A DNA stretch of 46,487 bases from a virus: positions 1-46,487 of IMG/VR virus record IMGVR_UViG_3300017697_002774, one strand, 5' to 3'. How positions within the stretch are numbered: position 1 is the stretch's first letter; every line of letters starts with the position of its first letter. A program made the translations under genes and the position numbers. A model generated the notes under the pieces. That model searched no databases and was not told where the DNA came from. It saw only the letters and a program-made list of their open reading frames with translations. This document shows positions 1,591-28,100 of the stretch, piece by piece.

Positions 1591-2142
1591 TTAGCGCACT
1601 AACAAGTCTGGCGACTCTATATAACACGATTGTTCTACTGACTTGAAGATAGATGCTTTTACAAACACGAGATCCACCTGTATAAGCATCATGCTTCTTC
1701 TGTAAATTGGTTCTATTACGTCCATTAGTGCCCAGTCATTCTCTCTCATCCAATTACATATGTTTAAAAACTTACCATCGTCTAATACACACTCAATCAT
1801 GATCGCACTAGTATTTAATAATATATTAGTTGAACCTTTTAGTATCGCTATCTCGGGTCCATCTACATCTATTTTATAGAATGCGTTATTGAATAATGTG
1901 TTACTTAATATATCATCTAAGTGTAGGTCTTCTCCTAACTCTACAATATTAGAATGATCACTAAACTTAGGATCCTTGTCGTAATTATAATGTGGTAAAT
2001 CTGGGAACACTGCATCTAAGAAGTAGGTAGGCTCACCAGTAACGTCACCACTGCCTATATCTATAATAGCGTCAAATTTAATACGTTCCCTCAACCATGT
2101 GAGTCGTTCAATAGGACATGGTCTGTCTTTAATCCAACTCAT
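1591..2142 (-). CDS. FkbM-family SAM-dependent methyltransferase
   Basis: The 183-residue product has a glycine-rich SAM-binding segment (IDIGSGDVTGEP, residues 27-38) and the signature FYKIDVDGPEIAILKGS (about 88-104), which corresponds to the K(I/L)DVEGxExxxLKG block of FkbM methyltransferases. Members of that family typically O-methylate sugars or related metabolites. It is shorter than many FkbM proteins but carries the core. Its start overlaps the stop of the SDR gene by 4 nt, so the two are co-translated. That supports a role in methylating a sugar made or transferred by its neighbours, though the acceptor is unknown. It is the last gene before the leftward terminators. Confidence 0.8.
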   Translation of the reverse strand: MSWIKDRPCPIERLTWLRERIKFDAIIDIGSGDVTGEPTYFLDAVFPDLPHYNYDKDPKFSDHSNIVELGEDLHLDDILSNTLFNNAFYKIDVDGPEIAILKGSTNILLNTSAIMIECVLDDGKFLNICNWMRENDWALMDVIEPIYRRSMMLIQVDLVFVKASIFKSVEQSCYIESPDLLVR

Positions 2143-3068
2143 ATGTTGCGTCCAGTTCTTGTTTTAAATGAATCAATGGTCAGTGATAAACCATCATGTC
2201 TAGATACGATGGGGTTCCATTGTAACATGTCTATTGCTTTGGTTATGTCAGGACATCGTCTAGATGGGTCGTCTGCGACACGAGACTCATATATTATATT
2301 GCTTGAACTATCAGATATTTCAATGATATCATTTACTAGTTCTAACAACGTCACCTCGTCAGGATTGCCTATGTTCACGGGAGTGGACACCTTGCTATTA
2401 GCCAGATATATTAATCCTAATACGGTATCACTAACGTAACAAAAACTTCTTGTTTGCAATCCATCTCCGTGAATGGTAATGTCATCTCCGCTTAATGCTT
2501 GGCATATAAAATTGCTTACTGCTCTTCCGTCATTGAATTCCATTGTGGGACCATATGTATTAAAAATTCGTGCGATACGTGTGTGAGCAGAACTTAGCAT
2601 ACACATAGTTTCTGCTACCCTCTTACCCTCATCGTAACATGCTCTGGGACCTAATGCATTTACATTGCCCCAATAACTTTCGCGCTGTGGGTGTTCAAGT
2701 GGGTCGCCATATGTTTCACTCGTGCTTGCTTGTATTAATATTGCGTCACTTGTTTCAGCCAACACAAGCATATTCCTGACACCGTTTATATTTGTATCTA
2801 ATGTATATTGTGGGTCACGTTGATAATGCACAGGACTTGCTGGACATGCTAGATTATATATTTGATCGTAATCAGTATCCCACATGCGAGTCTGCTGTAT
2901 GTCCCATTCAATAAAATGATAAGATGTATTATCTGCCCAACAATCTATATTATGTGGGTCACTAGTATAAAAGTTATCTACGCCATGTACTTCATGACCA
3001 CCATCTAATAGTTGACGTGTTAATTCTATTCCTAGTAATCCAGCAGCGCCAGTTATTAATATTTTCAT
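2139..3068 (-). CDS. UDP-glucuronate decarboxylase-like SDR (UDP-xylose synthase type)
   Basis: An extended short-chain dehydrogenase of about 309 residues. Numbering from the chosen start, it has an NAD-binding GAAGLLG (7-13), NLACPASPVHYQ in the region typical of UDP-glucuronate decarboxylases, STSETYGDP (115-123), and the catalytic YDEGK (Y145, K149) within GPRACYDEGKRVAET. These blocks closely match enzymes that convert UDP-glucuronate to UDP-xylose in the cytoplasm. I chose the ATG at 3068 because MKILITG is the usual start and its ATGA overlaps the stop of the upstream glycosyltransferase gene; an ATG at 3077 is possible. A dTDP-glucose dehydratase-like activity is less likely. The product should feed a sugar-transfer step in the same island. 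Confidence 0.85.
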   Translation of the reverse strand: MKILITGAAGLLGIELTRQLLDGGHEVHGVDNFYTSDPHNIDCWADNTSYHFIEWDIQQTRMWDTDYDQIYNLACPASPVHYQRDPQYTLDTNINGVRNMLVLAETSDAILIQASTSETYGDPLEHPQRESYWGNVNALGPRACYDEGKRVAETMCMLSSAHTRIARIFNTYGPTMEFNDGRAVSNFICQALSGDDITIHGDGLQTRSFCYVSDTVLGLIYLANSKVSTPVNIGNPDEVTLLELVNDIIEISDSSSNIIYESRVADDPSRRCPDITKAIDMLQWNPIVSRHDGLSLTIDSFKTRTGRNI

Positions 3069-3808
3069 ATATGCCATAATCCTAACTTTTTTAAACTTGC
3101 AATCTTTGCTGTATCGCCAAGATATTCTTTAGTGTTATCCCAATCTTCATATGCATACTTCCCAGTGATGTGAAATATACTCCACTCTGCTGTTTGATTA
3201 AAGTTATGTCCAGTAGGGTATTTATATGGTGACAATAGAGCGATACGAGTATCTTGTCTATGCTTTATGGTGGTATTGACAAATTTCTGACATGTACCAT
3301 CTTGTCGGTATCCGTTGTCATATAGATAAGAAATGTTGCATATATCAATATTGGTTTGTGTATTGCGCATACCGAACAATCCAGTACCGCAATTATATTC
3401 ATTGTGTGTCGGTAATGGATTTCCTAGCCACCCATATTGCTTTACGCTCTGACATATGATGTCGTTGTCTTCTAGTAATCTTTCTACATCATGAGTATAG
3501 TTTGTTTGTGTGACACAGTCTACATCAGTATAGAACCAATTCTTGCCAGCGTTCATTATCTGTTGTCCTATAATAAATTTGTATACGAACACATGGTGAT
3601 CTTCTTTTAATACTAATACAGTTGGATTGATGTCTTTTATTGCTTCGTACATTTCGGTATCTAGTGCTACAAACAAGATAGGTATACCAAGTAACTTACA
3701 ACTCTGTAGCCAGTTCAGTGTTAAAGACAGTACGCCTATATCTCCCATGCACCAGTATACGGTGTCGGTGTCTATGGTATTACAGTAATCATTTATTGAC
3801 TGTGGCAT
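3065..3808 (-). CDS. GT-A-like nucleotide-sugar transferase
   Basis: The 247-residue protein has a GT-A-type layout: a Rossmann-like N-terminal half (GIPILFVALDTEMYEAI), then WFYTDVDCV with a DxD motif at residues 95-97, which in this fold holds the metal and sugar-nucleotide. It later carries NCGTGLFGMR and a C-terminal HITGKYAYEDW. This fits the broad nucleotide-diphospho-sugar transferase group. A clear AGGAG ribosome site precedes the ATG, and the start overlaps the fusion gene by 20 nt. Placed between a UDP-xylose synthase-like gene and a dehydrogenase fusion, it may use the sugar they make. Donor and acceptor are unknown. Confidence 0.7.
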   Translation of the reverse strand: MPQSINDYCNTIDTDTVYWCMGDIGVLSLTLNWLQSCKLLGIPILFVALDTEMYEAIKDINPTVLVLKEDHHVFVYKFIIGQQIMNAGKNWFYTDVDCVTQTNYTHDVERLLEDNDIICQSVKQYGWLGNPLPTHNEYNCGTGLFGMRNTQTNIDICNISYLYDNGYRQDGTCQKFVNTTIKHRQDTRIALLSPYKYPTGHNFNQTAEWSIFHITGKYAYEDWDNTKEYLGDTAKIASLKKLGLWHI

Positions 3809-6086
3809 TAGTATCTCCTTGGTAGAATGCTTGTATGCTTGGTGTGCTGACTGTGGTCATTTTTGACTGAATAGGTCCGAGTGATTCATCAATGCCGAAT
3901 TGTTTATCTGCTTTGCTTTGTCTAACTAGAAGACTCACTATGTGTTCATAACTATCTAAGAATTTAGTATCGCCCGGTTGTACATCAATGGGTTCTCCAT
4001 GTTGTATCCAATCGTCTACCACTTGTTCTAGACTATTTTCTCTATTGACTTGTCCGATAATATATCTATCGTTGCCGGGTCTGTCTAAGAATCCAGCTTC
4101 TCTGCATAGATACACGTGTCCGTATGCGTCTACGACTACATCTATTTGTGGGAATCCTTTAGGTAGCATCTGTGCATCTGTGATACAATGCATTGTTGGT
4201 GAGTCTATATCTTGTTGTAATGCATTAAGTGCGTATCCATAATCAATATGTAATTTATTCAGATGTGTACTAGTCCTGCGTTGTTCCACTATCTTGAATA
4301 CTTCTTTTAATTTTTCTCTATTACCGAATGAATCTACTTCGTTTGGTTGTTGGAAATTTTCTCGCAGTGTTATGAAATCAATTTGATCATTTGCTTTTGA
4401 ATTTACTTCTTCTATTAAATCTAATACTTTAAGTAGATCATTTTCAAATCCAGGGAGTATTATATAATTGAATCCAAATCTCAAAGTTTTATTATGCTTC
4501 TTTCTATATTTAAGAAAGTCAATGGTGTTTTGTTTTACACGAGTGAATCCCTGTGCATGTTTAGTTACATGGGTATATACTTCATTGTTACTTCCGTAAA
4601 GACTTATTCGCAATACTTCTAGATCCCAAATGCCTGGGTTGTTATCTAGATACTTTTCAGTTAACAAAAATCCATTGGTATATAGACTGAATTTGAATCC
4701 TCTATCGTATCCAGCTTTTATCAATTTCATTAAGTCTGGGTTCGTCAGTGTTTCTAGTCCTCCACTAAGATAGAATCTATAAGGGTCATTATTAGGTGCG
4801 GTCTGTAATAGATTAATCAGATCAGGGGTGGTTGCTCTTAGTTGTGGTTTTTTATATGATGCATTGGTGTCCATATTACGTCCACAAAAGTGACACCAGA
4901 ACATACAACTCTGTCCTATGTGTAATCCTATTCTTAAAGGATATCCATATTCATTATTTAATACATTATTAATCGTACCGCTTTGTGATAATGGTATGAT
5001 TGTGCTATTCCAATACTGTGTATTTCGTATATCACCGACAATACATTCTTGAATAAAACTTATTTGTTGTAGAACAATGTTTAATTGTATCAATTGTTGT
5101 GTATTAATATTAATTGTTTCACTGATATATTGCTGTGTTACGAATGGATTATGTTTATAGCAGTCAATAATACCAACAGTATATTTTAAATAATCTATTA
5201 GTGTGGTGTCATACCTACTCGTTACCAATCCAGCATCTATTAATGGTTTGCTAATATACAAACCGATGATATCTGTTATGTTATTAAGTTTATTAAATCT
5301 AACGATATCAAGATGTTGCTCTCTTAATGAAGTCACACCATTGATGATAAATTCGTCTACCCATCTATGGTCACTTGCTAGATTTATATTATCATTGTGT
5401 GACAAGAAATCCAATAACTGCTTGTCTAGGGTCGTAGTATCCATATTAAAATCATATGCGATACCATCTATTTTCATATGCCTATCTTCTAATACATTAC
5501 GTTGAAGATCAACACTTATATGAGTTACACCAGACTGCATAGTATACCTAACACCATTTTCGGTTTGTGTGATATCAGTTAGTATATATTCATTACTAGA
5601 CAGAAACTTACTTAGTATGATTAATATATGTGATCCCACGTCTTCAAAGACTGATATGGTTGGGTCACTTATATATAGTTCATTGTGTTTGATCGTATTG
5701 TTATTGCTATGCCAAACTATATCAATTATATTTGGAGTTGTGAGAAGTTCATTGATGCTATCACTGTATGCAAACTCGTACCCTACTTTCAATATGCAAC
5801 CTTGATCATTTGCCAATTGTACTAATTCTTCATACTGTTCTAAGTTTTGTACAAACGGTTTTTCTATTAATACATTTTTTGAATTCAATAGTAACTGCTT
5901 AACAGTTTTATAATGATCGTCTGGTAAATTTGCGACCCAGACATAGTCACTGCTTATGTCATTTATACTTTTCACATTACACAATGCAGCGTTGTTCGTG
6001 TACATCTCTGTTTGTATATTGTTGTTGTGTGCGACTTGTTGTATTACTTTAGCCCAGCGCCCGCCACCTACTATCCCTAATTTCAA
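3789..6086 (-). CDS. Fusion of Gfo/Idh/MocA-type oxidoreductase and radical SAM enzyme
   Basis: One 765-residue frame joins two enzymes. Residues 1 to about 260 look like a Gfo/Idh/MocA NAD(P) oxidoreductase: MKLGIVGGGRWAK at the start, VWVANLPDDHY, the conserved EKP (75-77), and a GYEF segment. Members of that family oxidise or reduce sugars. After a helical linker (about 260-370) comes a radical SAM domain with the CxxxCxxC cluster motif (C394, C398, C401), followed by LSGGLETL and LYTNGFLL. A C-terminal part with DAYGHVYLCREAG recalls SPASM-like auxiliary regions. Each half is recognisable; the joined protein is not one I know. It starts on an ATGA overlap with another radical SAM gene. 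A frameshift artefact is unlikely because the frame is continuous. Confidence 0.75.
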   Translation of the reverse strand: MKLGIVGGGRWAKVIQQVAHNNNIQTEMYTNNAALCNVKSINDISSDYVWVANLPDDHYKTVKQLLLNSKNVLIEKPFVQNLEQYEELVQLANDQGCILKVGYEFAYSDSINELLTTPNIIDIVWHSNNNTIKHNELYISDPTISVFEDVGSHILIILSKFLSSNEYILTDITQTENGVRYTMQSGVTHISVDLQRNVLEDRHMKIDGIAYDFNMDTTTLDKQLLDFLSHNDNINLASDHRWVDEFIINGVTSLREQHLDIVRFNKLNNITDIIGLYISKPLIDAGLVTSRYDTTLIDYLKYTVGIIDCYKHNPFVTQQYISETININTQQLIQLNIVLQQISFIQECIVGDIRNTQYWNSTIIPLSQSGTINNVLNNEYGYPLRIGLHIGQSCMFWCHFCGRNMDTNASYKKPQLRATTPDLINLLQTAPNNDPYRFYLSGGLETLTNPDLMKLIKAGYDRGFKFSLYTNGFLLTEKYLDNNPGIWDLEVLRISLYGSNNEVYTHVTKHAQGFTRVKQNTIDFLKYRKKHNKTLRFGFNYIILPGFENDLLKVLDLIEEVNSKANDQIDFITLRENFQQPNEVDSFGNREKLKEVFKIVEQRRTSTHLNKLHIDYGYALNALQQDIDSPTMHCITDAQMLPKGFPQIDVVVDAYGHVYLCREAGFLDRPGNDRYIIGQVNRENSLEQVVDDWIQHGEPIDVQPGDTKFLDSYEHIVSLLVRQSKADKQFGIDESLGPIQSKMTTVSTPSIQAFYQGDTNATVNK

Positions 6087-6871
6087 AATACGGCACTACA
6101 TCTGCTACACAGATCAATGTCACATCGTTTACCAGCATCAAGTAGTTGTCGGTACTCGCTATACTTTTCATTGTACCATATATCAACAGCACTTGTGTTG
6201 TAGTCAATTTGACCAACGGGGTTACGTTTTCCAAAATCCCAAGGACAAAGATACATAGTTCCATCAATGAATACAAATGCTTCATCGGTTACTTTCTTAC
6301 AAGATGCTTGTAGACTTTCAGTTTGTGTTTCCCACGGATGATCATATAGTTCGGTTATCTGAGCGCAGCCTGGTCTTATGTTATTCCAATAATTTATGAA
6401 ATCTACTTGTTCTAATTCTGTCCCAGGCAAGTTTATCATTCGTACTTGTATATCAATGTTAGGATTATTTTTAATGAAGCGAGTAACGTTATCATATGTA
6501 TTTTTGAATTTTATACCCCTTACTTCATTGAATGTTTTTTCAGTGAAACCATCTACACTGAATCTAACAATGTCAACATATGGTGCAATATTCAATTCCA
6601 TCTTCGCGGTCATGGGTTCCCCGTTGCTATGTATTTCTACAATGGCAGTGGGATCTTGTTTAATGTATCTACATATTTCAGGCATACGAGTATCGACTAA
6701 TGGTTCACCTAACCCAAATGGTCTATATGTAATACCTCTGTTTCTGGTGTCATTGATTATCTTGTAGATCAAATCTATGTCCATGTGTTCTTTTGGAACT
6801 AGGTGATTTGGGCAGAACCAACAAGTAGCATTACAGAATGTGGTTGTTTCTATTTGTATGTATTTGAACAT
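6083..6871 (-). CDS. Radical SAM/SPASM protein
   Basis: This 262-residue protein begins MFKYIQIETTTFCNATCWFC, giving CxxxCxxC at C13, C17 and C20 for the 4Fe-4S cluster that cleaves S-adenosylmethionine. FGLGEPLVD (52-60) corresponds to the GGE-type SAM-binding block. The C-terminal cysteines C191, C209, C250, C255 and C258 fit a SPASM-type auxiliary cluster. SPASM enzymes modify peptides, sugars or alcohols by radical chemistry. The start lies 22 nt inside the aminotransferase gene and the stop overlaps the fusion gene. The neighbours favour a sugar or small-molecule substrate, but this is inference. Confidence 0.8.
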   Translation of the reverse strand: MFKYIQIETTTFCNATCWFCPNHLVPKEHMDIDLIYKIINDTRNRGITYRPFGLGEPLVDTRMPEICRYIKQDPTAIVEIHSNGEPMTAKMELNIAPYVDIVRFSVDGFTEKTFNEVRGIKFKNTYDNVTRFIKNNPNIDIQVRMINLPGTELEQVDFINYWNNIRPGCAQITELYDHPWETQTESLQASCKKVTDEAFVFIDGTMYLCPWDFGKRNPVGQIDYNTSAVDIWYNEKYSEYRQLLDAGKRCDIDLCSRCSAVF

Positions 6872-7875
6872 AAAAGTTTCTCAAACTGTTCTATTGGCAA
6901 GGTAGTCAACCGAATAGCAGTCTCGCTAAAATCATTTGCTTTTCCATATAGTATATTACATGAATCTAAATTATTAATAATTTCATCAGTAGGTTCAAAT
7001 ACAATATGATTCAATGTAGGCTCACTGTATATTTTACAATGACTAAAATATTTATGGGCGTGGTGTATTCCTTCCATATTTCTACGAATGCTTTTTTCTA
7101 CTATGTAATAATGTGTGTGCAAGTATTCAGCGAGTCGTAATGTTATCGCACTGACACTCATGATAGGTCTTATTTTAGTTATCTGTCTCATCGTATCTTC
7201 GTGACCGAATAATAAGCCAAGTCGTGCACCAGCCAATCCCCAACTCTTACTATAACTAAAACCTATTACACAATTTTTATATTCTATCAATGAAAAATAA
7301 TCAGTGTCACAAAAATCCTTATATGTGTTATCTAGAAATATCATAGTCTCAGGGTTATTAATACATAGGTCTTCTATGAATTTTTTAGTAAACACTTTAC
7401 CTGTAGGGTTATTAGGCGAACATATGTAAAAGACATCAGGACTATGCTCATGTAAGTTATCTAATATAGATTGCTCATCTTGATCACACTCTATAATGTT
7501 ATCACATAGATCAATAGAGTTAGTTATACTTCCACGATATGTAGGTGCTATAGTGAGAAATGTACTAGACGATTCAAGCGTTGATTCAAATGCTAACCTA
7601 ATTGCTTCATCACATCCAGCAGTTATTAAAATATTATCATGGCTACATTTGTAGTGATCTGCGAACATATCATAGTACCGTAAAAGATCCTCATAATACA
7701 TCGCGCTAGTCAGGGGGATGAAATGTTTGATTGCTGTTTGTATGTGATCTTTTAATACATCATCATGGTTTTCATTTCTATCAAGGTTTACATACCCTTC
7801 TTCTATTTTTTCTACACGATCTAGTAGTCCGCTCCAGTGCGGGCGCTGTAGTTGCTGTATATTCTTTTTTATCAT
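6850..7875 (-). CDS. PLP-dependent class I/II aminotransferase (HisC-like)
   Basis: The 341-residue product shows the fold-type I aminotransferase motifs in order: an N-terminal NLDRNEN segment, SPNNPTGK (153-160), FLDNTY with Asp182, and FSYSKSWGLAGARLG, where Lys210 should form the Schiff base with pyridoxal phosphate and Arg218 would bind the carboxylate. The overall pattern is closest to histidinol-phosphate-type aminotransferases. Such enzymes move amino groups between small acids or onto activated intermediates. Its ATGA overlaps the preceding small MORN-like gene. It may supply an aminated building block to the radical SAM and transferase genes that follow; sugar aminotransferases usually belong to another subgroup, so the substrate is open. 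Confidence 0.8.
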   Translation of the reverse strand: MIKKNIQQLQRPHWSGLLDRVEKIEEGYVNLDRNENHDDVLKDHIQTAIKHFIPLTSAMYYEDLLRYYDMFADHYKCSHDNILITAGCDEAIRLAFESTLESSSTFLTIAPTYRGSITNSIDLCDNIIECDQDEQSILDNLHEHSPDVFYICSPNNPTGKVFTKKFIEDLCINNPETMIFLDNTYKDFCDTDYFSLIEYKNCVIGFSYSKSWGLAGARLGLLFGHEDTMRQITKIRPIMSVSAITLRLAEYLHTHYYIVEKSIRRNMEGIHHAHKYFSHCKIYSEPTLNHIVFEPTDEIINNLDSCNILYGKANDFSETAIRLTTLPIEQFEKLLCSNTYK

Positions 7876-8210
7876 TTGGAATCCATTGTAGTATTTATTA
7901 TAAGTATTCTATGTCCCGTGACGGTAGTTCCATCTGTCTTAACTAGTATACCAAAGTCATCACCAATCCAAGTATCACCATTGTCTAATATAGTAATTAA
8001 CTTGGTGCTGATATCGTTATCATTGGTATGTGTAATCTCATTTTTATCATTGATAGTATAACCACACGGCTTGTCGTTTTTAAACTGTCCAGTTTGTGTA
8101 TGGGAAGTGACTAAGCCATTGAGTTTACCATCAACATATTCACCAACTATATTAGCACTCTCTCCTAAACCAGTGAACTTATTTCGTAGCATTATCTTAG
8201 TTACTAACAT
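7872..8210 (-). CDS. Small MORN-like repeat protein
   Basis: The 112-residue product contains MORN-like units (GEYVDGKLNGLV and GQFKNDKPCGY, about residues 23-52) and then an irregular beta-rich tail. The ATG at 8210 has a good GAGG site 6 nt upstream and overlaps the end of the MORN-methyltransferase gene; an ATG at 8192 is possible. It may be a detached piece of the larger MORN gene or a partner of it. MORN repeats usually form an extended beta meander that binds proteins or lipids. No enzymatic motif is seen. Confidence 0.6.
   Translation of the reverse strand: MLVTKIMLRNKFTGLGESANIVGEYVDGKLNGLVTSHTQTGQFKNDKPCGYTINDKNEITHTNDNDISTKLITILDNGDTWIGDDFGILVKTDGTTVTGHRILIINTTMDSK
7891..7898 (-). 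promoter_or_regulatory. Late-promoter-like motif ATAAATAC before the aminotransferase
   Basis: The minus-strand sequence is ATAATAAATACTACA, 16 nt before the ATG at 7875. It lies inside the end of the small MORN-like gene, so it may be just coding sequence, but it matches the motif before the baseplate and fibre units. Confidence 0.35.
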
Positions 8211-9579
8211 CTGTTACCTCAAACATATTTAAATCACTGCCATTGAATGGGCTTTGGGTGTATACTCCAATTAGACTATTATATTGTTTAAATATATTTG
8301 CTGGTCTAACATCCCATACTCTCCAACCATCGTTAATCGCTAACTCTATCTGTGTCCAATCTACACTGAGTTCATCTTTGTCATCATTATTACAACCTAT
8401 CTCTTCGGTAATTAATACACCATGTCCAGCGGTCAGTACTTCTTTGATAGTATCTAATTGACTCCATGCAGTAGTGGTGTGCATTGCATCATGTATTGCA
8501 AAATCAAAATCACCATGCGCTGTTACTATATCGTATATAGATTGTTTATCATAACAATCAGTGTTAAAGTAAAACTCAATTCCTGTTATCTGCGCTGCTA
8601 TTTTTAAATCTCGTATCTGTTGCGCCTCTAATTCGGTGTCTGGTATACTGGTAGGACTCAATCTATCAACTGCTATAATGACAGCATCAGGAAATAATAG
8701 TCGTAAGTGAACTAAGTGATCACCTCGTCCTATCCCAAATTCAACTATAACGGGCACATGGTTTACAAACTGATGATGATGTGCTATCATCATATCATAT
8801 ACCATACAATAATTTCTATCTAGTCTACGTTCTGTGCTGCGAGTTTTTGGATTGGTTGTTGCAATCCCAGTGTATGTTGAATGCAATACTTCGTGACCAA
8901 ATGCAAACACCCCACTATGTGACCAACCGTTATGATATTCAAGTCGTCCATTTCCGTGATAACGACCATTACGAAACCCACCCCAATATCGTTTAATCCA
9001 ATCACCATAATAATATGTTGAACGCTCACCATTGTATTCATCATGCATGGTAGTTATAAGATTCTTTTCTTCGGTGGTGATGCCGCGATCATCTACTGTA
9101 ATAGTTTCACCAACTGCGTTTATACTAACCCCATGTTCTGGATGCACACAACCATGCTCGTCTATACCAACACTGCTCGGATCTATTTCTATGTTATCTG
9201 ATGTATACCAATTACCAATTTGTGGCTCTGCGTGCATACCATGTACACTACCTATGAATTTAACCCCATTGTGTACTGTCGTTAGTATTCCAAATCCATT
9301 AGGTTGATTGTTTGAGAATTGTCCTACATAACTTGCGCCACTAGCCCATGTATGTACGCCATTGCCATTTTTAATATTAGATGTGTATTGACCAACATAT
9401 GTTTCGCCTTGAATCCAAGTCTTCACTGCTCTTCCACTAACTACATTATTATCAAAGTTACCAGCGCACTTACCTTGTAGGGTCACTTCGTAATAACCAA
9501 GACCATGTTCTTGATCTGCGTCATTGCGATGACCTGCATAGGTTCGCTGTGATGCATAATAATTACTATGTGTTTTCAT
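8197..9579 (-). CDS. MORN-repeat protein fused to a SAM-dependent methyltransferase
   Basis: Residues 1 to about 230 carry roughly six MORN-like repeats, for example TYVGQYTSNIKNGNG (60-74), SYVGQFSNNQPNGFG (83-97) and GGFRNGRYHGNG (200-211). From about residue 255 a class I methyltransferase domain follows, with the SAM-binding VEFGIGRGD (279-287), an acidic end of strand 2 (IIAVDR), and DFAIHDAMH plus GVLITEEI further on. The order suggests a repeat-based docking part and a catalytic part. The substrate is unknown. Its start overlaps the stop of the upstream sulfotransferase gene (ATGA), so it is co-translated with it. Both halves are recognisable, but the combination in a phage is unusual. 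Confidence 0.75.
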   Translation of the reverse strand: MKTHSNYYASQRTYAGHRNDADQEHGLGYYEVTLQGKCAGNFDNNVVSGRAVKTWIQGETYVGQYTSNIKNGNGVHTWASGASYVGQFSNNQPNGFGILTTVHNGVKFIGSVHGMHAEPQIGNWYTSDNIEIDPSSVGIDEHGCVHPEHGVSINAVGETITVDDRGITTEEKNLITTMHDEYNGERSTYYYGDWIKRYWGGFRNGRYHGNGRLEYHNGWSHSGVFAFGHEVLHSTYTGIATTNPKTRSTERRLDRNYCMVYDMMIAHHHQFVNHVPVIVEFGIGRGDHLVHLRLLFPDAVIIAVDRLSPTSIPDTELEAQQIRDLKIAAQITGIEFYFNTDCYDKQSIYDIVTAHGDFDFAIHDAMHTTTAWSQLDTIKEVLTAGHGVLITEEIGCNNDDKDELSVDWTQIELAINDGWRVWDVRPANIFKQYNSLIGVYTQSPFNGSDLNMFEVTDVSN

Positions 9580-10301: not shown

Positions 10302-11061
10302 TATATAACTCCATATCGTATTTTACATCATCTAATACAAGTTGTTGGTTGGTAGTTGATAAGTCATTAAATTGTATCATCTCGCTTCCTTGAAATTTTA
10401 ATGTATCACTTGTTACATTGGTACGATGTATATCTCTGATCTCATTAAACACAATACCATGTATATCACAAATACTTTCAAACTCTTGCACAATGTCATT
10501 ATTTGTATTTATATAGTGTGTGATACGCTGCTGTGTATTTTGCTGAAACCATGTATAGTTACGTTGATCATTTGCACGCTTTATCTCAGTATAATTCTGG
10601 TATGCAACTTGATTGATGCTAGTTTTTTCTCCATCCCAGTGTAGTATCTGATTGCTGTACATGGTGTCGTACTCGTGTATATCATGTCTCCAATGTCCAT
10701 TGCATTGATTTAAGAAGTCGATCATACTAGTGTAAGGCATTGGTCGCATCTGATCTTTGTTTATGAACCATGTATAGAAGTCCAACCCTACTTGGTTATT
10801 AGGGTTCATGTATGTTAATTGAGTGAGTGTAAAGTTATACTGACTCATAATACGTTCTACAGGATTTCTCAATGCTGTAACGTATACAACGGGTCGTACA
10901 TCATCCCATTTATCAAATTTCGCAGTATGTCCAAATATCACATCATGATCGTTCACAGTCTCACGATCACATGCACAGAAGTTATCATTGTGCCAGTATC
11001 GTTCAATTAGAGTTGTCCCAGCGGTCTTGGGTATATGTAAGAATACTATCCTAGGCTTCAT
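10273..11061 (-). CDS. Sulfotransferase-like protein (second of two)
   Basis: From the ATG at 11061 the protein begins MKPRIVFLHIPKTAGTTLIE, with a textbook 5'-phosphosulfate-binding loop (residues 9-18). ALRNPVERIMSQYNF supplies the 3'-phosphate-binding Arg and Ser, and GHTAKF aligns with the conserved GH block. I chose 11061 because it gives an ATGA overlap with the upstream radical SAM gene and the usual start; a frame-compatible ATG at 11103 would add 14 unlike residues. It resembles the downstream sulfotransferase in length and layout, which suggests an old duplication, although the two are far from identical. The acceptor is unknown; a sugar is the best guess from the neighbours. Confidence 0.8.
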   Translation of the reverse strand: MKPRIVFLHIPKTAGTTLIERYWHNDNFCACDRETVNDHDVIFGHTAKFDKWDDVRPVVYVTALRNPVERIMSQYNFTLTQLTYMNPNNQVGLDFYTWFINKDQMRPMPYTSMIDFLNQCNGHWRHDIHEYDTMYSNQILHWDGEKTSINQVAYQNYTEIKRANDQRNYTWFQQNTQQRITHYINTNNDIVQEFESICDIHGIVFNEIRDIHRTNVTSDTLKFQGSEMIQFNDLSTTNQQLVLDDVKYDMELYNATSIPSRI

Positions 11062-12086
11062 GGTCTTGATTTGCCCATTATGATGTCGGTAATGCAATAG
11101 CACGCATCTTTATTACATACAATTGCCTTCGTAGGCATTTCAAAGTTTTCTATATCGTCAATTCTACCAAGCCAATTTACATCAACACTGCCCTCTACTC
11201 TTTCTGGTAGACATGCGGCACGACTAATATATCCGCGTTCGTTGATAAACAATCCATCAATACCAGCCATGCATGTCCAACCACGGAAACTTATACGATC
11301 ACTAGTGTAAAGGTTGTTAGCAGATAACGGAAACTCATCATAATACCTACCATCTACTGTCTTAAATGTTGCTGCTACATCTAGTGGCATAGGGTATTTT
11401 TCAAAGTCAGTGACGGTCGGTGCATGAAATCGTATAGTAGAATCAGTGTCTATGTATTCCTGTTGTGGTATTGTATAGATGTGCTTGTGTTCGTTATCGG
11501 TCAACCACTCGTCAACCACTGGAACTTTCTCTACATGTAGACACTGTGGAGTTTTGTTTTGCTTTATACCTTCAAAGAACTCAATACACTTTTCAAAGTA
11601 CTGCTGTCTTGTGTGCATCATAACCCTGACACCAAGCATTGTATAGGGCCATAATGTTTCTACTACATTCAAGCAATGTTTTACATTACTCTTCTCGCTG
11701 TGGAAACTAAAACTTACCCAGCGATACATGTGTCTTGTACGTTCCCAAAACTTAATGTTCTTACTGCCGTTGGTGGTTAGACCTATCGCTACATCTTGTT
11801 CATATAACCATATAACCAAATCCTCAAACAGATCAAGTGCAGTGGGTTCGCCACCAGTGAAACTAATAACCAATTGTTCATCTGGATCTAAACTTTTCTT
11901 AATCTTCGTAACAGTATCTTTGTAATGTTGCAAGTCAAAGTCAGGACTGCTACCAGCATAGTTGTATGGATGACAATACTCACAACTAAAGTTGCACGTG
12001 TTTGTTAAATTCCAATTGATGTGAAAGTATTTGTTATAGTGTTGATATATTTCAATCAATCGTGTGTTTTTGCTATTTGACAACAT
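11058..12086 (-). CDS. Radical SAM protein
   Basis: Numbered from ATG 12086, the radical SAM motif is C31, C35, C38 within NTCNFSCEYC. It is followed by ISFTGGEPT, the GGEP SAM-binding block, and GLTTNGS. The C-terminal part has FRGWTCMAGIDGLFINERG and a late cysteine group (VCNKDACYC), suggesting an extra cluster. I preferred ATG 12086 over the TTG at 12104 because it has an AGG site at fair spacing; it overlaps the preceding gene by 14 nt. Such proteins modify peptides or small molecules. It lies between a gene of unknown function and a sulfotransferase. Substrate unknown. Confidence 0.8.
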   Translation of the reverse strand: MLSNSKNTRLIEIYQHYNKYFHINWNLTNTCNFSCEYCHPYNYAGSSPDFDLQHYKDTVTKIKKSLDPDEQLVISFTGGEPTALDLFEDLVIWLYEQDVAIGLTTNGSKNIKFWERTRHMYRWVSFSFHSEKSNVKHCLNVVETLWPYTMLGVRVMMHTRQQYFEKCIEFFEGIKQNKTPQCLHVEKVPVVDEWLTDNEHKHIYTIPQQEYIDTDSTIRFHAPTVTDFEKYPMPLDVAATFKTVDGRYYDEFPLSANNLYTSDRISFRGWTCMAGIDGLFINERGYISRAACLPERVEGSVDVNWLGRIDDIENFEMPTKAIVCNKDACYCITDIIMGKSRP

Positions 12087-12915
12087 AGTTTGTAATACCT
12101 GCAATTTTTCTATTTATTAAAGATTTGTCACAATGCCAACGACCAATCTTTAGATACCCATAATTAAAATCAGATGCATTGATGTTCCATTTACTAAACT
12201 GCCTTGGCTGTTTCATTTCTTTCAATGATTGACTGTGTTGATAGGTGATGTCTTCGCAATACAATGTTATAGCATTATCGTAATATGTCATGGACGTTGC
12301 TATATTCGTTTCAAACGTATCATCTTCTTCAAGACTATAATAGTCGAGATTTTCGCCAAGTGTAAATCCCAATGTAGGATCAGACAATATAATATCTCCA
12401 TAGCATAAGTCTAGATTAAATCTAGATTGATGATCTTCTGATAATAGTCTGAAATCACTTTCAAATTGTAAATCAAAACTGTGATTACACAAGTAACGCT
12501 CGTTAAGTCGTTTTACATATGAAAGAGCATCCGCAAACAAACGAGCGTCTAAGTTACCTTGTTGTATTAGATATTGATACTGTATGAACAAATGTATATG
12601 TAAATTTTGTATTTGCGTTCTATCATGTACATCAACGAGGTTGTGTTGAAAATTTACCGAGTCATTAATCAAAGGACTAGCAACAAACCCGTATACGTCA
12701 AAATATGTTGCGCTAGACTCTGGCCACTGTCTACTGCGTATCGCATTCAATAAACGATCTAGTTCGACTTGTTGTGCATCTTTGTCAATAGTTAGTGTAT
12801 TGTTTTTTAACGATGGATACGTACTTACATCAATGTTAAGATCAATATCAATATCAAGAATCACTTCTGTAGTCTGACCATAATCTAGTTCAACTTCAAG
12901 TTTTGTTAATCCCAT
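12073..12915 (-). CDS. Protein of unknown function between two radical SAM genes
   Basis: The 280-residue product has no motif I recognise. The N-terminal third is rich in Asp and beta-forming residues (KLEVELDYGQTTEVILDIDI), the middle is helical with many His, Gln and Tyr (IQNLHIHLFIQYQYLIQQGN), and the C-terminal region has paired aromatic and His residues (NYGYLKIGRWHCDK). It lies 3 nt downstream of one radical SAM gene and overlaps another, so it is very probably co-expressed with both. It could be a substrate, a partner or a separate enzyme; the middle part vaguely recalls an iron or oxygenase-type His-rich segment, but I cannot support that. Confidence 0.6.
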   Translation of the reverse strand: MGLTKLEVELDYGQTTEVILDIDIDLNIDVSTYPSLKNNTLTIDKDAQQVELDRLLNAIRSRQWPESSATYFDVYGFVASPLINDSVNFQHNLVDVHDRTQIQNLHIHLFIQYQYLIQQGNLDARLFADALSYVKRLNERYLCNHSFDLQFESDFRLLSEDHQSRFNLDLCYGDIILSDPTLGFTLGENLDYYSLEEDDTFETNIATSMTYYDNAITLYCEDITYQHSQSLKEMKQPRQFSKWNINASDFNYGYLKIGRWHCDKSLINRKIAGITNYVVK

Positions 12916-12918
12916 ACG

Positions 12919-14205
12919 TTACTTTACCGCATCCTTAATTATCTTCATCTCTGGTATGATTGCGTATGTGTCTTCTCCCCGTATTTCATCTAATTGCTCT
13001 GTTATCTTAACAAATTTCTTAGCACCTTCTTTATCCCACGGCTTTTCCAATTCACTTAATATATGATTCATGATACCTTGAATACTTGTGTTATGCTCTT
13101 TTCCGTAATCCACAATCCATTCTTTTAGATGATCTATAATGATTTGTCTCTGTTTATCAGGCCATATACTTACATGGTAATGTTCAGGAGTTTCCAATAA
13201 ATTAATAAACCAGTTATTGTGCTTAATGTACTCATACTTTTTGATTGCACCAAGTGCGATTAACTCTTCCACTATCTCTGGGATTCTGAAAACATTCCAT
13301 GCTCCAATCGTCAATCCAGGTCGCATTATGATATTAGGATACTGTGCTACTTCTTTTATATTTTTCGCAACAGTCTCCCATACAGTACCAGCGCGAATCA
13401 ATTCTCCTCGCTCACCTATCTCGTCAATACTAGGCCACACTTCTATCATTCCAAATTCCCATTGCTGCCAATAGTCTAGAACTTTCTTCTTTTTGTATCC
13501 CAATATACTCATGTTAGTATTGTACTGTATCTTGACATCAAATCGCTTTTTTTCAACAAGCATATCTAGTATTTCCCAGTGTTCAGGCATCATCAATGGT
13601 TCGCCACCAGCGAAATAAATACTTTCAACTTTATCAACACTCGACTTTAAGAAGTCTACATTTGTTGTTTTTTCAGTCTGCTTGATGAATGAAACTTTTT
13701 CTTGTTCGGTAATCCAATTCAACTTCTTAGCATCAGGGACCCAAGCACTGCTGTATCTAGGACCGCAACTGCGACATTTAAAATTACATAAATTACTAAA
13801 ACGAAAATCCCAATACCTAAGATCCATGGTTGTACACGCGCCATCTTCTTCGGTGATTGTTGGTATCAATTCTAATACCTGTGGGAAATTTTTATTGTGA
13901 TGTGTGCGACCACTTGTTCCCGCTACCTTTTCTCTATCAAAGCATTTATTGCAGATCGCAGGTTCTTTACCATCTATCATTTCTTTTCGTAGCGTTTTCA
14001 TGTTGTTGCTATTCCAAATTTCTTCAATGGAATCTTCATTCAAATCACCAGCGAAATAATCATGTGCACTGGTCAAACAACAAGGTACAACTTTTCCATT
14101 TGGTTCAAAATTCAAATGCATCCACGGCACTGCACATATGGTGTCACTTACCATCACTTCTTCTACGACTTGTTCTTTTTTAATTTCATCCACTTGTTTA
14201 TTCAT
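12919..14205 (-). CDS. Radical SAM protein with N-terminal SPASM/twitch-like domain
   Basis: In this 428-residue protein the cysteine-rich auxiliary part comes first: C24 in TICAVPWMHLNFEPNGKVVP, then C42, C43, C85 and C88 (CNKCFDRE). The catalytic CxxxCxxC follows at C140, C144 and C147 (FSNLCNFKCRSC), then YFAGGEPLM, a GGEP-type SAM-binding block. This reversed order is found in the twitch-domain radical SAM proteins known from T4-like phages of aquatic hosts, whose function is not settled. It begins at the stop of thyA with a 1-base overlap. The TATA-less junction suggests it is transcribed with folA-thyA. Confidence 0.85.
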   Translation of the reverse strand: MNKQVDEIKKEQVVEEVMVSDTICAVPWMHLNFEPNGKVVPCCLTSAHDYFAGDLNEDSIEEIWNSNNMKTLRKEMIDGKEPAICNKCFDREKVAGTSGRTHHNKNFPQVLELIPTITEEDGACTTMDLRYWDFRFSNLCNFKCRSCGPRYSSAWVPDAKKLNWITEQEKVSFIKQTEKTTNVDFLKSSVDKVESIYFAGGEPLMMPEHWEILDMLVEKKRFDVKIQYNTNMSILGYKKKKVLDYWQQWEFGMIEVWPSIDEIGERGELIRAGTVWETVAKNIKEVAQYPNIIMRPGLTIGAWNVFRIPEIVEELIALGAIKKYEYIKHNNWFINLLETPEHYHVSIWPDKQRQIIIDHLKEWIVDYGKEHNTSIQGIMNHILSELEKPWDKEGAKKFVKITEQLDEIRGEDTYAIIPEMKIIKDAVK

Positions 14206-22185: not shown

Positions 22186-25100
22186 TTAACTTACGCCCTT
22201 TTCGCTTGCTTGTAGTTCTTGTGATGCACTATTCTCGACAGTAACATCTAGTATACTCTTTCCAGAACTGAAATCAAATTGTGGCACAGTTCTATATTGT
22301 CCATTGACTACATAAGTCTTCAATGATTTGAATATGCTCAACTCTTCGTCAGTTACATCTATAATTACTGTAGTAGCACTATGCTTTCTATTTATAGTTC
22401 CAAACATAGCGCGTGTGATATTATTTAAGGTGTCACCATTAACTTGAGTGTATTGAATAATTTCACCATCTATATATGCAAAACCACCTAGCGTGTTAAA
22501 TTTAACACCATGACCAGTTGCAAGTGTGATAATAGTATCAGTGTATTCCATATCAGTAGTAATAGTAGATTCACGATCTTCTCTTAAACTAAATGCTGAT
22601 GTGTTCAACCAATTATCTTGTATATACGCATAAGTACGTGTATCTGCATCAACCACACTACCTGCTGTATTTGTCACAACTTTAAAAGATACTAGTTCAT
22701 TATATGTTCGATTTATGTTAGAACGACGATACTCATTATGTACGTTATTTAAATTAGTAGGACTAATGAATTCAATACTTTCTATCACATCAGTTAGTAC
22801 ATCGGTGAAACCACCACTATCAATTATATCAGTAGGTGTCTCATTAAAACCAGAAGTAATAATCGGATTTTCATAATCATACTGATTATGATCTAACAAA
22901 TTATTAGTTCCAATTGTGATTTTCATAGTTCTGCTAAGTTCTTCCATTTTAGCAGAAAACTTATCGTTCACGTGGTATGATTCTAGAACACTCTTAATTT
23001 TTGTGTGATATGGCTTAACAGTATTTATATAACCAGAAATTTCATTAAGTATTGAACGATTGTATTTTGTAGGCTTTGCTGAGCCAGTTTCTACCTCTGT
23101 AATGATATTAAGATGAACATATGTCGTCTTATAAACCCAATCAACTTGGTCATGCTCTGATACAGCATATTTTACTAAAGCAAAAAATAGTTTATTAAAG
23201 TTTTTAATATGCTCATCTATAAACAAATCATAGCGACAAGCATATATTACATACTGCATGTATGCCGCAGGACTAGTATCCCAATTTTCACCATCCCAAC
23301 CACATGCTGGATTATCCCATCCATTAGACAAATTCTTATTATATAAAAAGTCGTTAAATTCTATTGTTGCATTTTTCTTTTCAACAAGAATCCATTCGTT
23401 TGACGTAGTATTCCATTCGAATATTTCACTTTTGTCTAATTGAGTTATACTACCTTCAATATTAAACAATACAATTGTATGTACCTCGTTATCAACTTGT
23501 GCAAGTTCTTCATAAGATGATACTTCAATAGTAGGCAGATTTCCTTCTGTCCGGTCTACATGTACAAAGTCTGTAAAATCCCAAAGAATATTCATATCCA
23601 AGTTGGTCGTATCTATAACTGAACCAATAGTTCTATCCCAAATACCATCCAATTCTTGTACCAGATTTTGTCTTTTTAATAATGCATTGATAGTGTAGAT
23701 TGCTTCTCTACGAGCATTCCATGCATCCTTAAACCAACCCTGTGAGTATATCTTATTATCAAATTTCAATTCACGATCATCGCCATAACGATTATATTCA
23801 TGTAAACTCTCAGATGGTAGTTCCTGTCCAACTGTTGATTCATTTGCTGGTAGTGTACCTGTAAAGTATGCTGTTTCAATTACTTGTTCACTCAAGTTAT
23901 CGCGTAAGCCAGTATACCAATAATCTGGGATAAGGTCAATGTTTTCTTTGATCGCTGTCCAGTTGCTATGTGCTGATTCACTATGAGTAGCATCTATGGT
24001 GTCAGATTTCATATTAATTTGTAATACGCTACTTGTATCATTGACAATATATTTTACGTTGTTAACAATCATTGCATCGCTGTCTATCGCGGCACACCAC
24101 ATGATACCATTATCTGTTGGATTAGATATGATACTTGCAATCTGTTTCACCGATAATAAGCGATTGTCTTCTGTATTTGTTTTGTTCTTAACCCAGAAAT
24201 AATATACTACATCGTATTTTTTAAGTTTATCATTCCATTCATCCAATGTAACATAGTAATATAAATTTTCATTGATTGATTTGTCGAACACACTATATAC
24301 TTCACCAGTTGCTACTAAGCCATATTGCTCTGTACTATTCGCTACTGCATCTATCCATTCTTCTGGGTGCACTGAACTCTTTGTCCATTCATACACATCA
24401 ATGCTAGAAGAAGGAAATTGCTTGCCCCATGTTTTAGCACGATATGCATTATCACCTTGTTCATAGTCATAATATCTTACCTTACTAGTATCCCACCAAG
24501 TTCTGCCTATCTCTGCTTTACCCCATGAGTTATGTTCATCTATATTGTATTCTAAATCAGTAGATGTGTTATATACTGCAAAATCCACTGATGATTTGAA
24601 ATCAAGTTCTCTATCTGCTACGCCGGGTATAATTCCTCGCAACGGATCGAAAACTTCCATTTCAGTTATCGTCTGTTCTGTGTCACCATCATAAATTAAT
24701 ATATTAGCAATCTTTGCATTAGTTACACGTGTACTATTTTCTCTAGTTAATACGAATGCAGATCCATTATATTTGTATACTTGTGTTGCTGCGTCACCAC
24801 TTACACTATCAGTAGTAGACCAAACTAAATCACCTGTGTTCCAGTTATATAAAGTGCCCGCAGATGCTGATGTATTAATATCAGCAAGACTATTAAATCT
24901 CGCTGAACGTAATACAAATACAGATTCACTCGTACCATCAGATTCAATGAATTTATCAATGTAGAATGTTGCGGGTTGCGCCAAATTGCCCAACTTAGTA
25001 ACACGATGAATACCATCAACATTAGGCGTTGTAGTCGTGTTGACCAACATAACATAGTCACCAACTTTAACATTGTGTGCTGCATTCAATGTAACCTTTG

Positions 25101-28100
25101 CATCATTCCCGTCATCAGTCTCAGTACCAGCAACTATGCTAGTCGCGTAATATGTGAACTGCTGTACTTGTAAGACATTCCAACTAAAGAATTTACTTGT
25201 GATAGATCCCGTAGTATTATTAACTAGTTCGTTGTCATCACTCATCCATATATTAAACAATGCTTCATCAATTGTTGAACTATCAGTCCAATCATTTTGA
25301 TCAAATATATTGACAACACTTTCTGTCGATGAAGTCTGTATGCCAGTTTCAAGACCAGCCAGTGTATTGAATTCTCTGTTGCCTAAATTAATTTGTAAAT
25401 TAGTCGATGAAATATTTATTCTATTTGCGACAACAGATACAGTTACATTATTTATTGGTGCTGCTAATAGTGCTGCGTTTATAAAATCAACAGCGTCAGT
25501 CGCATTGCTATTCACATTTGTAAGTGCACCAGTTGCATTAGTTGTTGCTGGGAATGCTAAAACAGAATTCGCTGTACCACTTATTTCCAATGTAGTAAAT
25601 TGAGTGAATTCAGTAGTTGCTACTTTTTCTATTCTCACTTTATTTGCAACAACAGATACGTTATACGCAGTAGTTAGTGCAGTGTCAATTGCTGCTGCTA
25701 TGAATACTTCATCCATCAATTGACTTTGAAGTTCTTGCGTAGTAACAGTATTATATGTACCAGTTGCAATACCGAATTCAGTTGAACCATTAGTGAATTG
25801 AATTGTCAATTGTGCATTGATATTTCCGTTTGCATCCAATACAACTGCAACTCTGGTAGTATCTTGTTCGTTGTTGACACCAGTTACATTTGCTACCGAA
25901 CTGATCGCAGTTTTTAACTGTTCTTTGTCCATTGTTATAACAGATGAAAAACCTAATAGATTAACTGTTATATCTACAACACCATTAGCATCATCACCAT
26001 CTACGATAGGAGTGTTAAATGTAATTATTTGGGTATTTTCATCATATGTATAATCAGATGCGATAAGTGTATATGCTGCGGTGTTTCCACCGGGCACAAC
26101 ATCAATCGTACCTACTGTAAATGATGCCATATTAGTTGTTATCGTCACACTAGTAACAGGTGCTGCTTCTGCTAAGAATACCTCAGTCGTATCGGTTCCT
26201 GGTGTAGGTGTTATAACAGTAGTACCATAAGGTTCTAAATCAACAACGGTAGAATTTATATTTAAAGTCATGCCAGTAACATCAGATGACGAAGGATTCA
26301 CATTAGTTACTGTGTAAGGATTTCCATCATGCGGTGCAGATACATCAATAACAGTAACAAGTGCATTACTTACTAGATCAATTGAGTTACCATCAACAAT
26401 AATGTTATTTGGTGATAACACTGATGGACTTGTTATACTTTCGATAATTATAGAATTATAAACAAACTGTTCTTTATCAAACCAAATATCAACTCCGTCG
26501 ATAGACGCAGAGGGCTCAAGCGGGTCATCGGTTACATTACGATGTGGGAATGTAGGATCAGTCGCAGTGCCCAAAAATACCAAGTCTGAGGGTGCAGTGT
26601 TATATCCTATATAGTCTACATTACAACTCTGTAATTTTCCTTCAAGTCTTACCTTGTCGCCAAATCTATATGATGTTGTGCTACTCCATGTGTTTATATT
26701 GGCGTAACCACTTGTTGCATCAAATAAAGTTTCCAAATCATCTATATTAAATATAACATTATCTGCTTCGGTGTCAAGTAAATCACCTGCTGTTAGCAAT
26801 GTAGTTTTGTTCTGTTCATAAGATAGTGTTTCAAATACTTGTGGATTTTCTTTATTGACAAACACAATATCAGGACTACTAAAATCAATAACAGATGGAT
26901 TCACTGTAACATCAGATGGAGTAATCTCAATTTCAGTTGATTTGGTTATTAAAGTATCGCCAAAATTACTCTGTCTAAACATGAATTCTTCATCTATATC
27001 AATGGTACTATTACCATCATTTATAAGTTTACTTCGCCCGATACGCTGTATTACAGACTTTGTACCCTTTGATTTAATAACTCCTTGAAAGAATTTACTG
27101 ACTGCTGTATCTGATAAATTTAACTTAGAAACCCAATCTCTGCTAACATTATTAATCATTAAGTTTTCTGCTTTGGTAATTTGCTTATTAAATTTTTCTA
27201 CGTTAAAGTCGTATAAATTAGAAATTTCCTCAACAGTTGAATCGAAGTTCTGAATTATTGTATTTTCTCTAACCAAGAATCCGGGTGCTTGCTTTGCGCC
27301 AGTCCAGTTACGAGTTCGCTGTCCAATCAATTTTAATCTCTGTTGTCTGATATTAGTTACATCATCAAAAATAATTTCATTGAATTGCGTTAAATTATTT
27401 AACAAAATAGCATGTTCATGTGTTACCATCGCAGTGCCGATACTAGCCATAGCATTCACGCCGGGCTTTGTTTCAACTGTCAATGAATTGGTATCACGAG
27501 TTATAAGTAGATTAGATGCTTCAATTGTGCTACGACTATCGTCTGATATTGAATTTAACTTTTCTGGTAATGTGTTATATTCTAACACAACATGTGCTGT
27601 ATTAGCAAATGATATTTTTTCATCAAGTGGTATAACAAATGTATCATTTACATCTGCGCTGATAGCCCATTGTGCAAAACTATATGCCTTAGCATCTCCT
27701 GTTGTTCCAAATTGATAACCGACACTATCTAAGTATGCATAATTTCCACGGATAAAATTATATACATCTTGTACGCGAGAAAACTGGGCTTCATATTCTG
27801 CAATAGATACTGCATCTGAATATTGTTTATATTTCTTGATAGTCACATCATCATTCAAATTAATATTGACATGATTATTGACATTTGACATTAGTGGTTC
27901 AAGAAATTTAAATTGTTGTTTATGATTACTAATTCCATCTACTGTAAAACTTGTTGTATTTTTTGTAACAATAATATTACACGCAACGTGAATATCTGAT
28001 GGTGAACTAGTATACATTATTAATGGTGCATCTATTTGGTTTAATGAAAACTTTCCATTACCACCAGATTCAGTTTCAACGTTCAGTAAATGGGGTGCAG

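Follow-up and report, generated by a model that had tools for sequence, protein, structure and literature searches.

The viral DNA analyzed here, a stretch of 46,487 nucleotides (IMG/VR record IMGVR_UViG_3300017697_002774; in the following referred to as the window), encodes a protein of 765 amino acids in which a domain of the Gfo/Idh/MocA oxidoreductase type is followed by a homolog of the radical SAM enzyme DesII. The domain architecture is new; both halves are known parts. The protein probably represents two neighboring steps of an unusual deoxysugar synthesis built into one molecule. In our preferred reading, to which we assign a probability of roughly one half, it is a bifunctional nucleotide-sugar enzyme of a large marine myovirus which acts as a DesII-type lyase and subsequently as a Gfo/Idh-type 3-ketoreductase. 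The relationship to DesII, which had been missed in the initial annotation of this DNA, tells us the most about this protein.

The fusion is encoded in a single frame in two phage lineages

The coordinates given for the open reading frame in the initial annotation (Table 1; stop codon included) are correct; the strand, which is the minus strand, was not stated there. The start codon is TTG and shares bases with the TGA stop codon of the upstream radical SAM gene, as read directly at positions 6083-6086. In the homolog of contig L002, an ATG is present at the residue matching this TTG. Full-length fusions in a single frame were found in six phage contigs with 58-100% identity, the values relative to the window being 70% for L002, 61% for L004, 59% for L005, and 58% for L035 and L037. 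A second, divergent fusion lineage is represented by L075, which is also full length and shows 42% identity. With a full-length frame in six independent contigs and in the divergent seventh, a frameshift between the halves, which the initial annotation had listed as a possible objection, was ruled out, as were a chimera and a wrong start codon. The fusion is thus real and full length in two lineages. Both halves are under purifying selection, with dN/dS values of about 0.22 and 0.12 for the closest pair, the remaining pairs being near synonymous saturation. L099 was considered as a further fusion and set aside because of its short contig and unrelated N-terminus.

The fusion was modeled with AlphaFold2 using 21 sequences (mean pLDDT 85.6, pTM 0.85). 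In the model, the Gfo/Idh and the DesII folds abut without a linker. A Rossmann/Gfo fold was obtained over residues 1-259, as had been anticipated for the first 260 residues, and the description of the protein as an EKP-containing oxidoreductase half joined in one frame to a CxxxCxxC radical SAM half agrees with the matches to PF01408 and PF04055, the EKP motif at residues 75-77, and the cysteines C394, C398, and C401.

Table 1. Features of the fusion gene and its neighbors (positions in the window)
Feature	Position	Strand	Basis
Gfo/Idh-DesII fusion protein	3789..6086	-	ORF, families, model, full-length homologs
Gfo/Idh/MocA half, residues 1-~259	5310..6086	-	PF01408, Z 26.3 to GnnA, invariant motifs
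EKP motif, residues 75-77, predicted catalytic lysine K76	5856..5864	-	K in 12/12 Gfo domains compared
D149-x-x-x-H153, predicted catalytic motif of Gfo/Idh enzymes	5628..5642	-	sequence comparison
DesII-like radical SAM half, residues ~260-765	3789..5309	-	TIGR04426, Z 41.1 to 8hzv
CX3CX2C [4Fe-4S] motif C394/C398/C401 = DesII C141/C145/C148	4884..4907	-	invariant in 36 DesII sequences
GGLE SAM-binding motif, residues 442-445 = DesII G187-E190	4752..4763	-	alignment mapping
E663 = DesII E408	4098..4100	-	alignment mapping
D711 = DesII D456	3954..3956	-	alignment mapping
C-terminal tail, residues 740-765, aromatic-Tyr motif	3792..3869	-	alignment of DesII proteins
Radical SAM/SPASM protein, upstream, overlaps fusion start	6083..6871	-	ORF and Pfam
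HisC-like fold-type I aminotransferase, same cassette	6850..7875	-	Pfam/NCBIfam
Glycosyltransferase PF03407 (Nucleotid_trans), overlaps fusion end	3065..3808	-	Pfam
UDP-glucuronate decarboxylase-like nucleotide-sugar enzyme	2139..3077	-	E 1e-94 to UXS1 structures

The C-terminal half is a homolog of DesII

The NCBIfam model TIGR04426 (DesII) matched residues 304-735 with an E-value of 4e-106, and Pfam detected a Radical_SAM domain (PF04055; E 3.4e-8, 34.3 bits, cut-off 29.5). A phmmer search yielded the crystal structure of DesII, 8hzv (E 3.7e-77), on which residues 254-743 of the model could be superimposed using VIA-align with a Z-score of 41.1, 476 residues, and an rmsd of 2.6 Å. Judged from sequence and model, the second half is a DesII homolog, related to dTDP-4-amino-4,6-dideoxyglucose ammonia-lyase; it is predicted to comprise a helical N-terminal domain, the radical SAM core, a C-terminal domain, and a phage-specific tail. 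Its TIGR04426 score of 355.6 bits is below the equivalog cut-off of 450, and the same holds true for phage DesII homologs encoded beside aminotransferases (340-348). Owing to this score, we describe the half as DesII-like and do not file it as DesII despite its DesII fold and residues, and its substrate may differ from that of DesII.

The residues of the cluster, the SAM-binding site, and the active site are invariant across the 36 phage and actinobacterial DesII sequences compared. In addition to the motifs listed in Table 1, R493, S495, and Y497 of the fusion are identical to R238, S240, and Y242 of DesII. The roles of DesII residues were taken from the structure paper, according to which E408 is the proposed proton shuttle and the D456A variant is inactive (PMC11434129). 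Two conservative changes concern the adenine loop, where D323 and Y324 of DesII are replaced by N577 and F578. As in DesII (8hzv, 8hzy), Pfam finds no SPASM domain (PF13186) in the fusion, whereas it does so in the neighboring proteins encoded at 6083-6871 and 12919-14205; a SPASM-type radical SAM identity of the fusion was therefore ruled out. The fusion differs from DesII in its sequence (36% identity), its position behind a Gfo/Idh domain, an extra conserved C-terminal tail, the lack of an adjacent DesI gene, and its location in a phage. The tail with its aromatic-Tyr motif is shared by the compared DesII proteins that go with Gfo, both fused and split, and absent from those associated with aminotransferases and from the actinobacterial ones.

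The N-terminal half is a predicted Gfo/Idh/MocA oxidoreductase

Pfam GFO_IDH_MocA (PF01408) matched the first half with an E-value of 7.5e-13 and 49.7 bits (cut-off 24). Using VIA-align, residues 1-259 were matched to Gfo/Idh enzymes, with Z-scores of 26.3 for GnnA (250 residues aligned) and 23.9 for KijD10. The nearest structures include the UDP-GlcNAc 3-dehydrogenase GnnA (7bvj/7bvk), GenD2/KanD2, the 3-ketoreductase KijD10 (3rc1), and WlbA; these enzymes act on sugars, for the most part at the C3 position. Many of these matches lie within a few Z units of one another and specify neither the position nor the direction of the predicted hydride transfer. The fusion shares with these proteins the GxGxxA motif of the Rossmann fold, the EKP lysine, the D-x-x-x-H motif, and, in the model, the open-faced C-terminal β-sheet. 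Based on the Pfam score, these folds, and these motifs, the first half is a predicted oxidoreductase of the Gfo/Idh/MocA family. It differs from the matched structures in being shorter (about 262 amino acids compared to 300-340), in having only 12-18% identity to them, and in being covalently tied to a radical SAM enzyme.

GxGxxA, K76 of the EKP motif, D149, and H153 are invariant in all seven fusions (the six close ones and L075). In the split phage Gfo proteins, the motif aspartate corresponding to D149 is replaced by arginine and the histidine is kept; the canonical catalytic set is thus incomplete in some phage partners. The end of strand β2 carries no acidic residue in the six close fusions, which would be compatible with NADP(H) as cofactor.

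The fusion gene is part of a sugar gene cassette in a putative large myovirus

The fusion gene sits between sugar genes. The order HisC-like aminotransferase, radical SAM/SPASM protein, fusion, PF03407 glycosyltransferase, and UXS-like enzyme is common to the six close relatives. In every one of them the glycosyltransferase and UXS genes lie downstream of the fusion, and the radical SAM/SPASM gene either adjoins the fusion or is located a few genes away. For the gene at 2139-3077, assignments as RmlB or GalE were dropped in favor of UXS. In L004, L005, L035, and L037, extra genes are inserted before the fusion, the last of which encodes a NodU/TobZ-type carbamoyltransferase whose end overlaps the fusion start (L004:8523-10010, L035:6529-8010). 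From this neighbor, the product sugar may be carbamoylated in these four relatives. A DegT 4-aminotransferase was detected neither in the seven window-type contigs searched (about 400 kb, all fragments) nor in the 169-kb contig of L100.

The baseplate wedge protein of the window is about 41% identical to its counterpart in PA5oct-like jumbo phages and 37% identical to the one in SCTP-2; judging from these matches, the window most likely represents part of a large myovirus genome. Beside the baseplate genes, a single open frame of 3382 amino acids extends from 22186 to 32334. L005 (NZGL01000008.1) is a phage contig that seems to have ended up by binning in the GTDB MAG 'Gammaproteobacteria bacterium MED685'; a bacterial origin was ruled out, as its gene order is that of phage contig L004. 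Three more radical SAM proteins are encoded within the same 8 kb (6083-6871, 11058-12104, and 12919-14205), the last of which matches the twitch-domain family NF033640 above the cut-off. The gene at 8197-9579 encodes a MORN-repeat protein of 460 amino acids with a possible methyltransferase-like C-terminal part. Downstream of the cassette in L002, a DAHP/KDO8P synthase-family gene (PF00793; L002:9340-10122) suggests that acidic sugars are formed, too.

Phage DesII homologs occur in two genomic settings

Earlier viral scans with narrow patterns underestimated the family; a scan with a broader alignment including actinobacterial rows revealed 30 viral loci with DesII relatives, and a later scan added several. 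Phage DesII genes are found either with DegT/DnrJ aminotransferases or with Gfo/Idh. In the aminotransferase setting, DesII adjoins one or two DegT/DnrJ genes in a DesI-DesII-DesV-like order, and Gfo/Idh genes were not detected in these loci. This arrangement was observed in L076-L078, L080, L081, L085-L094, L096, and L097, including some contigs of more than 250 kb, and a phage-borne amino-deoxysugar pathway is possible in them.

The Gfo/Idh setting comprises the fusions (window type and L075), phages in which Gfo and DesII are overlapping or adjacent separate genes (L095, L106, L107), and phages in which a Gfo-DAO fusion overlaps or lies near DesII (L079, L082, L083, L098, L100, L120). The split-gene phages resemble the fusion in having both activities together and, in those compared, the DesII tail; they differ in that the halves are unfused, that Gfo is often fused to an FAD-dependent DAO, and that D149 is replaced. 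In four of the Gfo-linked phages (L079, L082, L106, L107), a DegT aminotransferase gene lies at a distance of 2.4-4.3 kb. The combination of a short Gfo/Idh domain with an FAD-dependent DAO-type oxidoreductase is itself a second unusual fusion, present in L079, L082, L083, L084, L098, L100, and L120; the Gfo motif aspartate is arginine in the Gfo-DAO proteins compared, and L095 carries Gfo and the DAO-type oxidoreductase as separate genes. In a tree, the aminotransferase-linked and the actinobacterial DesII proteins each form one clade and the Gfo-linked ones form two groups, which leaves room for a single origin of the latter. As there are few clades, the exclusivity of the two settings does not reflect many independent events.

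Among bacteria, a Micromonospora trifolii operon (L006) contains Gfo/Idh, DesI, and DesII in a row. It resembles the fusion in combining Gfo/Idh and DesII activities in one operon and differs from it by separate genes and by a DesI aminotransferase above the curated cut-off (685 bits, cut-off 650). A Gfo/Idh gene was present within 10 kb of six of the 26 actinobacterial DesII genes, directly in an operon only in L006; this proximity carries little weight, as Gfo/Idh genes are frequent in these genomes. The fusion itself was not seen in bacteria: a pattern scan of GTDB, a type of search that misses distant relatives, yielded 26 stand-alone actinobacterial DesII loci and the fusion in the phage-like L005 only. 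Among 398 sampled Pseudomonadota genomes there was no DesII except that of L005, and of 396 sampled Actinomycetota genomes two had DesII, unfused in both. No match was found in 50,697 isolate phage records, and none spanning both halves in BFVD. The initial annotation had named no characterized enzyme with this arrangement and had proposed a search for fused or adjacent homologs. The search revealed the fused and the overlapping or adjacent genes described above, and a characterized Gfo/Idh-DesII fusion was found neither in the PDB by sequence, nor in family libraries, nor in the freely accessible papers searched.

Proposed reaction and alternatives

DesII abstracts the C3 hydrogen and eliminates the C4 amine directly, leaving a 3-keto product (PMC11434129). 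The radical rearrangement suggested in the initial annotation does not fit this chemistry, which is an elimination and not a migration. Starting from the two domains with their intact catalytic residues, the conserved fusion, and the recurrent pairing as separate genes, we infer the substrate, the order of steps, the cofactor, and a channeling of the intermediate as follows. The [4Fe-4S] cluster of the DesII-like half would cleave SAM to a 5'-deoxyadenosyl radical, which would abstract the C3 hydrogen of a nucleotide-bound sugar. The C4 substituent, an amine in the case of DesII, would be expelled to give a 3-keto-4-deoxy sugar. In a second step, the Gfo/Idh half would reduce the 3-ketone with NAD(P)H, as a 3-ketoreductase, and the resulting nucleotide-activated 4-deoxy sugar (4,6-dideoxyhexose type) would be handed to the neighboring glycosyltransferase. 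Of the earlier proposal that two steps on the same substrate are channeled, the assignment of both enzymatic halves to one sugar pathway is supported by the pairing in phages and by the Micromonospora operon.

The reverse order was the one put forward originally: Gfo/Idh would oxidize a sugar carbon, in the manner of GnnA and WlbA at C3, ahead of a rearrangement or elimination by the radical half. This order could draw on the C3 oxidases of nucleotide sugars among the nearest structures and on the NCBIfam UDP-GlcNAc 3-dehydrogenase family, which matches five of the six fusions (best E 1.1e-9). The DesII radical, however, requires the C3 carbinol hydrogen, so that the known chemistry would be blocked at a C3 ketone, and oxidation at other carbons, though possible, has no support. 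We therefore consider DesII-first, in which the DesII half makes the 3-ketone and Gfo/Idh more plausibly follows, to be chemically simpler and the reverse order to be the least probable of the readings discussed here. That the Gfo/Idh half is catalytically dead and serves the radical half in substrate binding, dimerization, or electron supply appears improbable as well, if slightly less so. Its shortness, its faster evolution (58-42% identity compared to 77-70% for the DesII half), and the split-phage partners lacking the motif aspartate would fit such a role, but K76, D149, H153, and GxGxxA are kept in all seven fusions and both halves are under purifying selection.

The main weakness of the proposed lyase-reductase mechanism is the substrate. 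With no DegT gene seen in the contigs, the source of a 4-amino substrate would need to be the host, genes in a part of the genome outside these fragments, or the HisC-like neighbor, and the conserved UXS-like neighbor, pointing at UDP-pentoses, counts against this reading. A serious rival, which we nevertheless rate as rather unlikely, is that the DesII half acts on a C4-hydroxyl sugar, e.g., UDP-xylose provided by the UXS-like enzyme, and that Gfo/Idh reduces the ketone formed. This could be a 3-ketone arising by radical dehydrogenation, which would make the pair a C3 epimerase, or a 4-deoxy-3-ketone arising by dehydration. DesII is indeed able to dehydrogenate TDP-quinovose and partly dehydrates TDP-fucose (PMC11434129), and both the UXS-like gene beside the fusion and the failure to see DegT in window-type contigs are in line with such a substrate. 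On the other hand, the equivalents of E408 and D456 and the whole active-site set are the same as in aminotransferase-linked DesII, and DegT-family genes do occur in the four Gfo-linked phages and in the Micromonospora operon. A specific amine-free route, in which the radical half generates a C3 ketone from a UDP-pentose by radical oxidation or dehydration and the Gfo/Idh half delivers hydride to the opposite face or yields a 4-deoxy sugar, is somewhat less likely still. If true, one polypeptide would edit the same carbon twice, uniting radical and hydride chemistry in a sugar epimerase or deoxygenase, a reaction pair that we found described in no single protein.

Significance

DesII is studied as a model of the choice among deamination, dehydration, and oxidation in radical catalysis, and the literature surveyed describes it from actinobacteria, as an enzyme of antibiotic sugars. 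In the present data it emerges as a recurrent phage enzyme with two genomic settings, one with sugar aminotransferases and one with a Gfo/Idh reductase, to which it is fused in some lineages of the latter setting. The fusion indicates how the 3-keto product of DesII chemistry is likely processed next and makes it possible to test, within one polypeptide, the transfer between the radical and the hydride sites. It further points to large marine phages as producers of deoxysugars for surface glycans.
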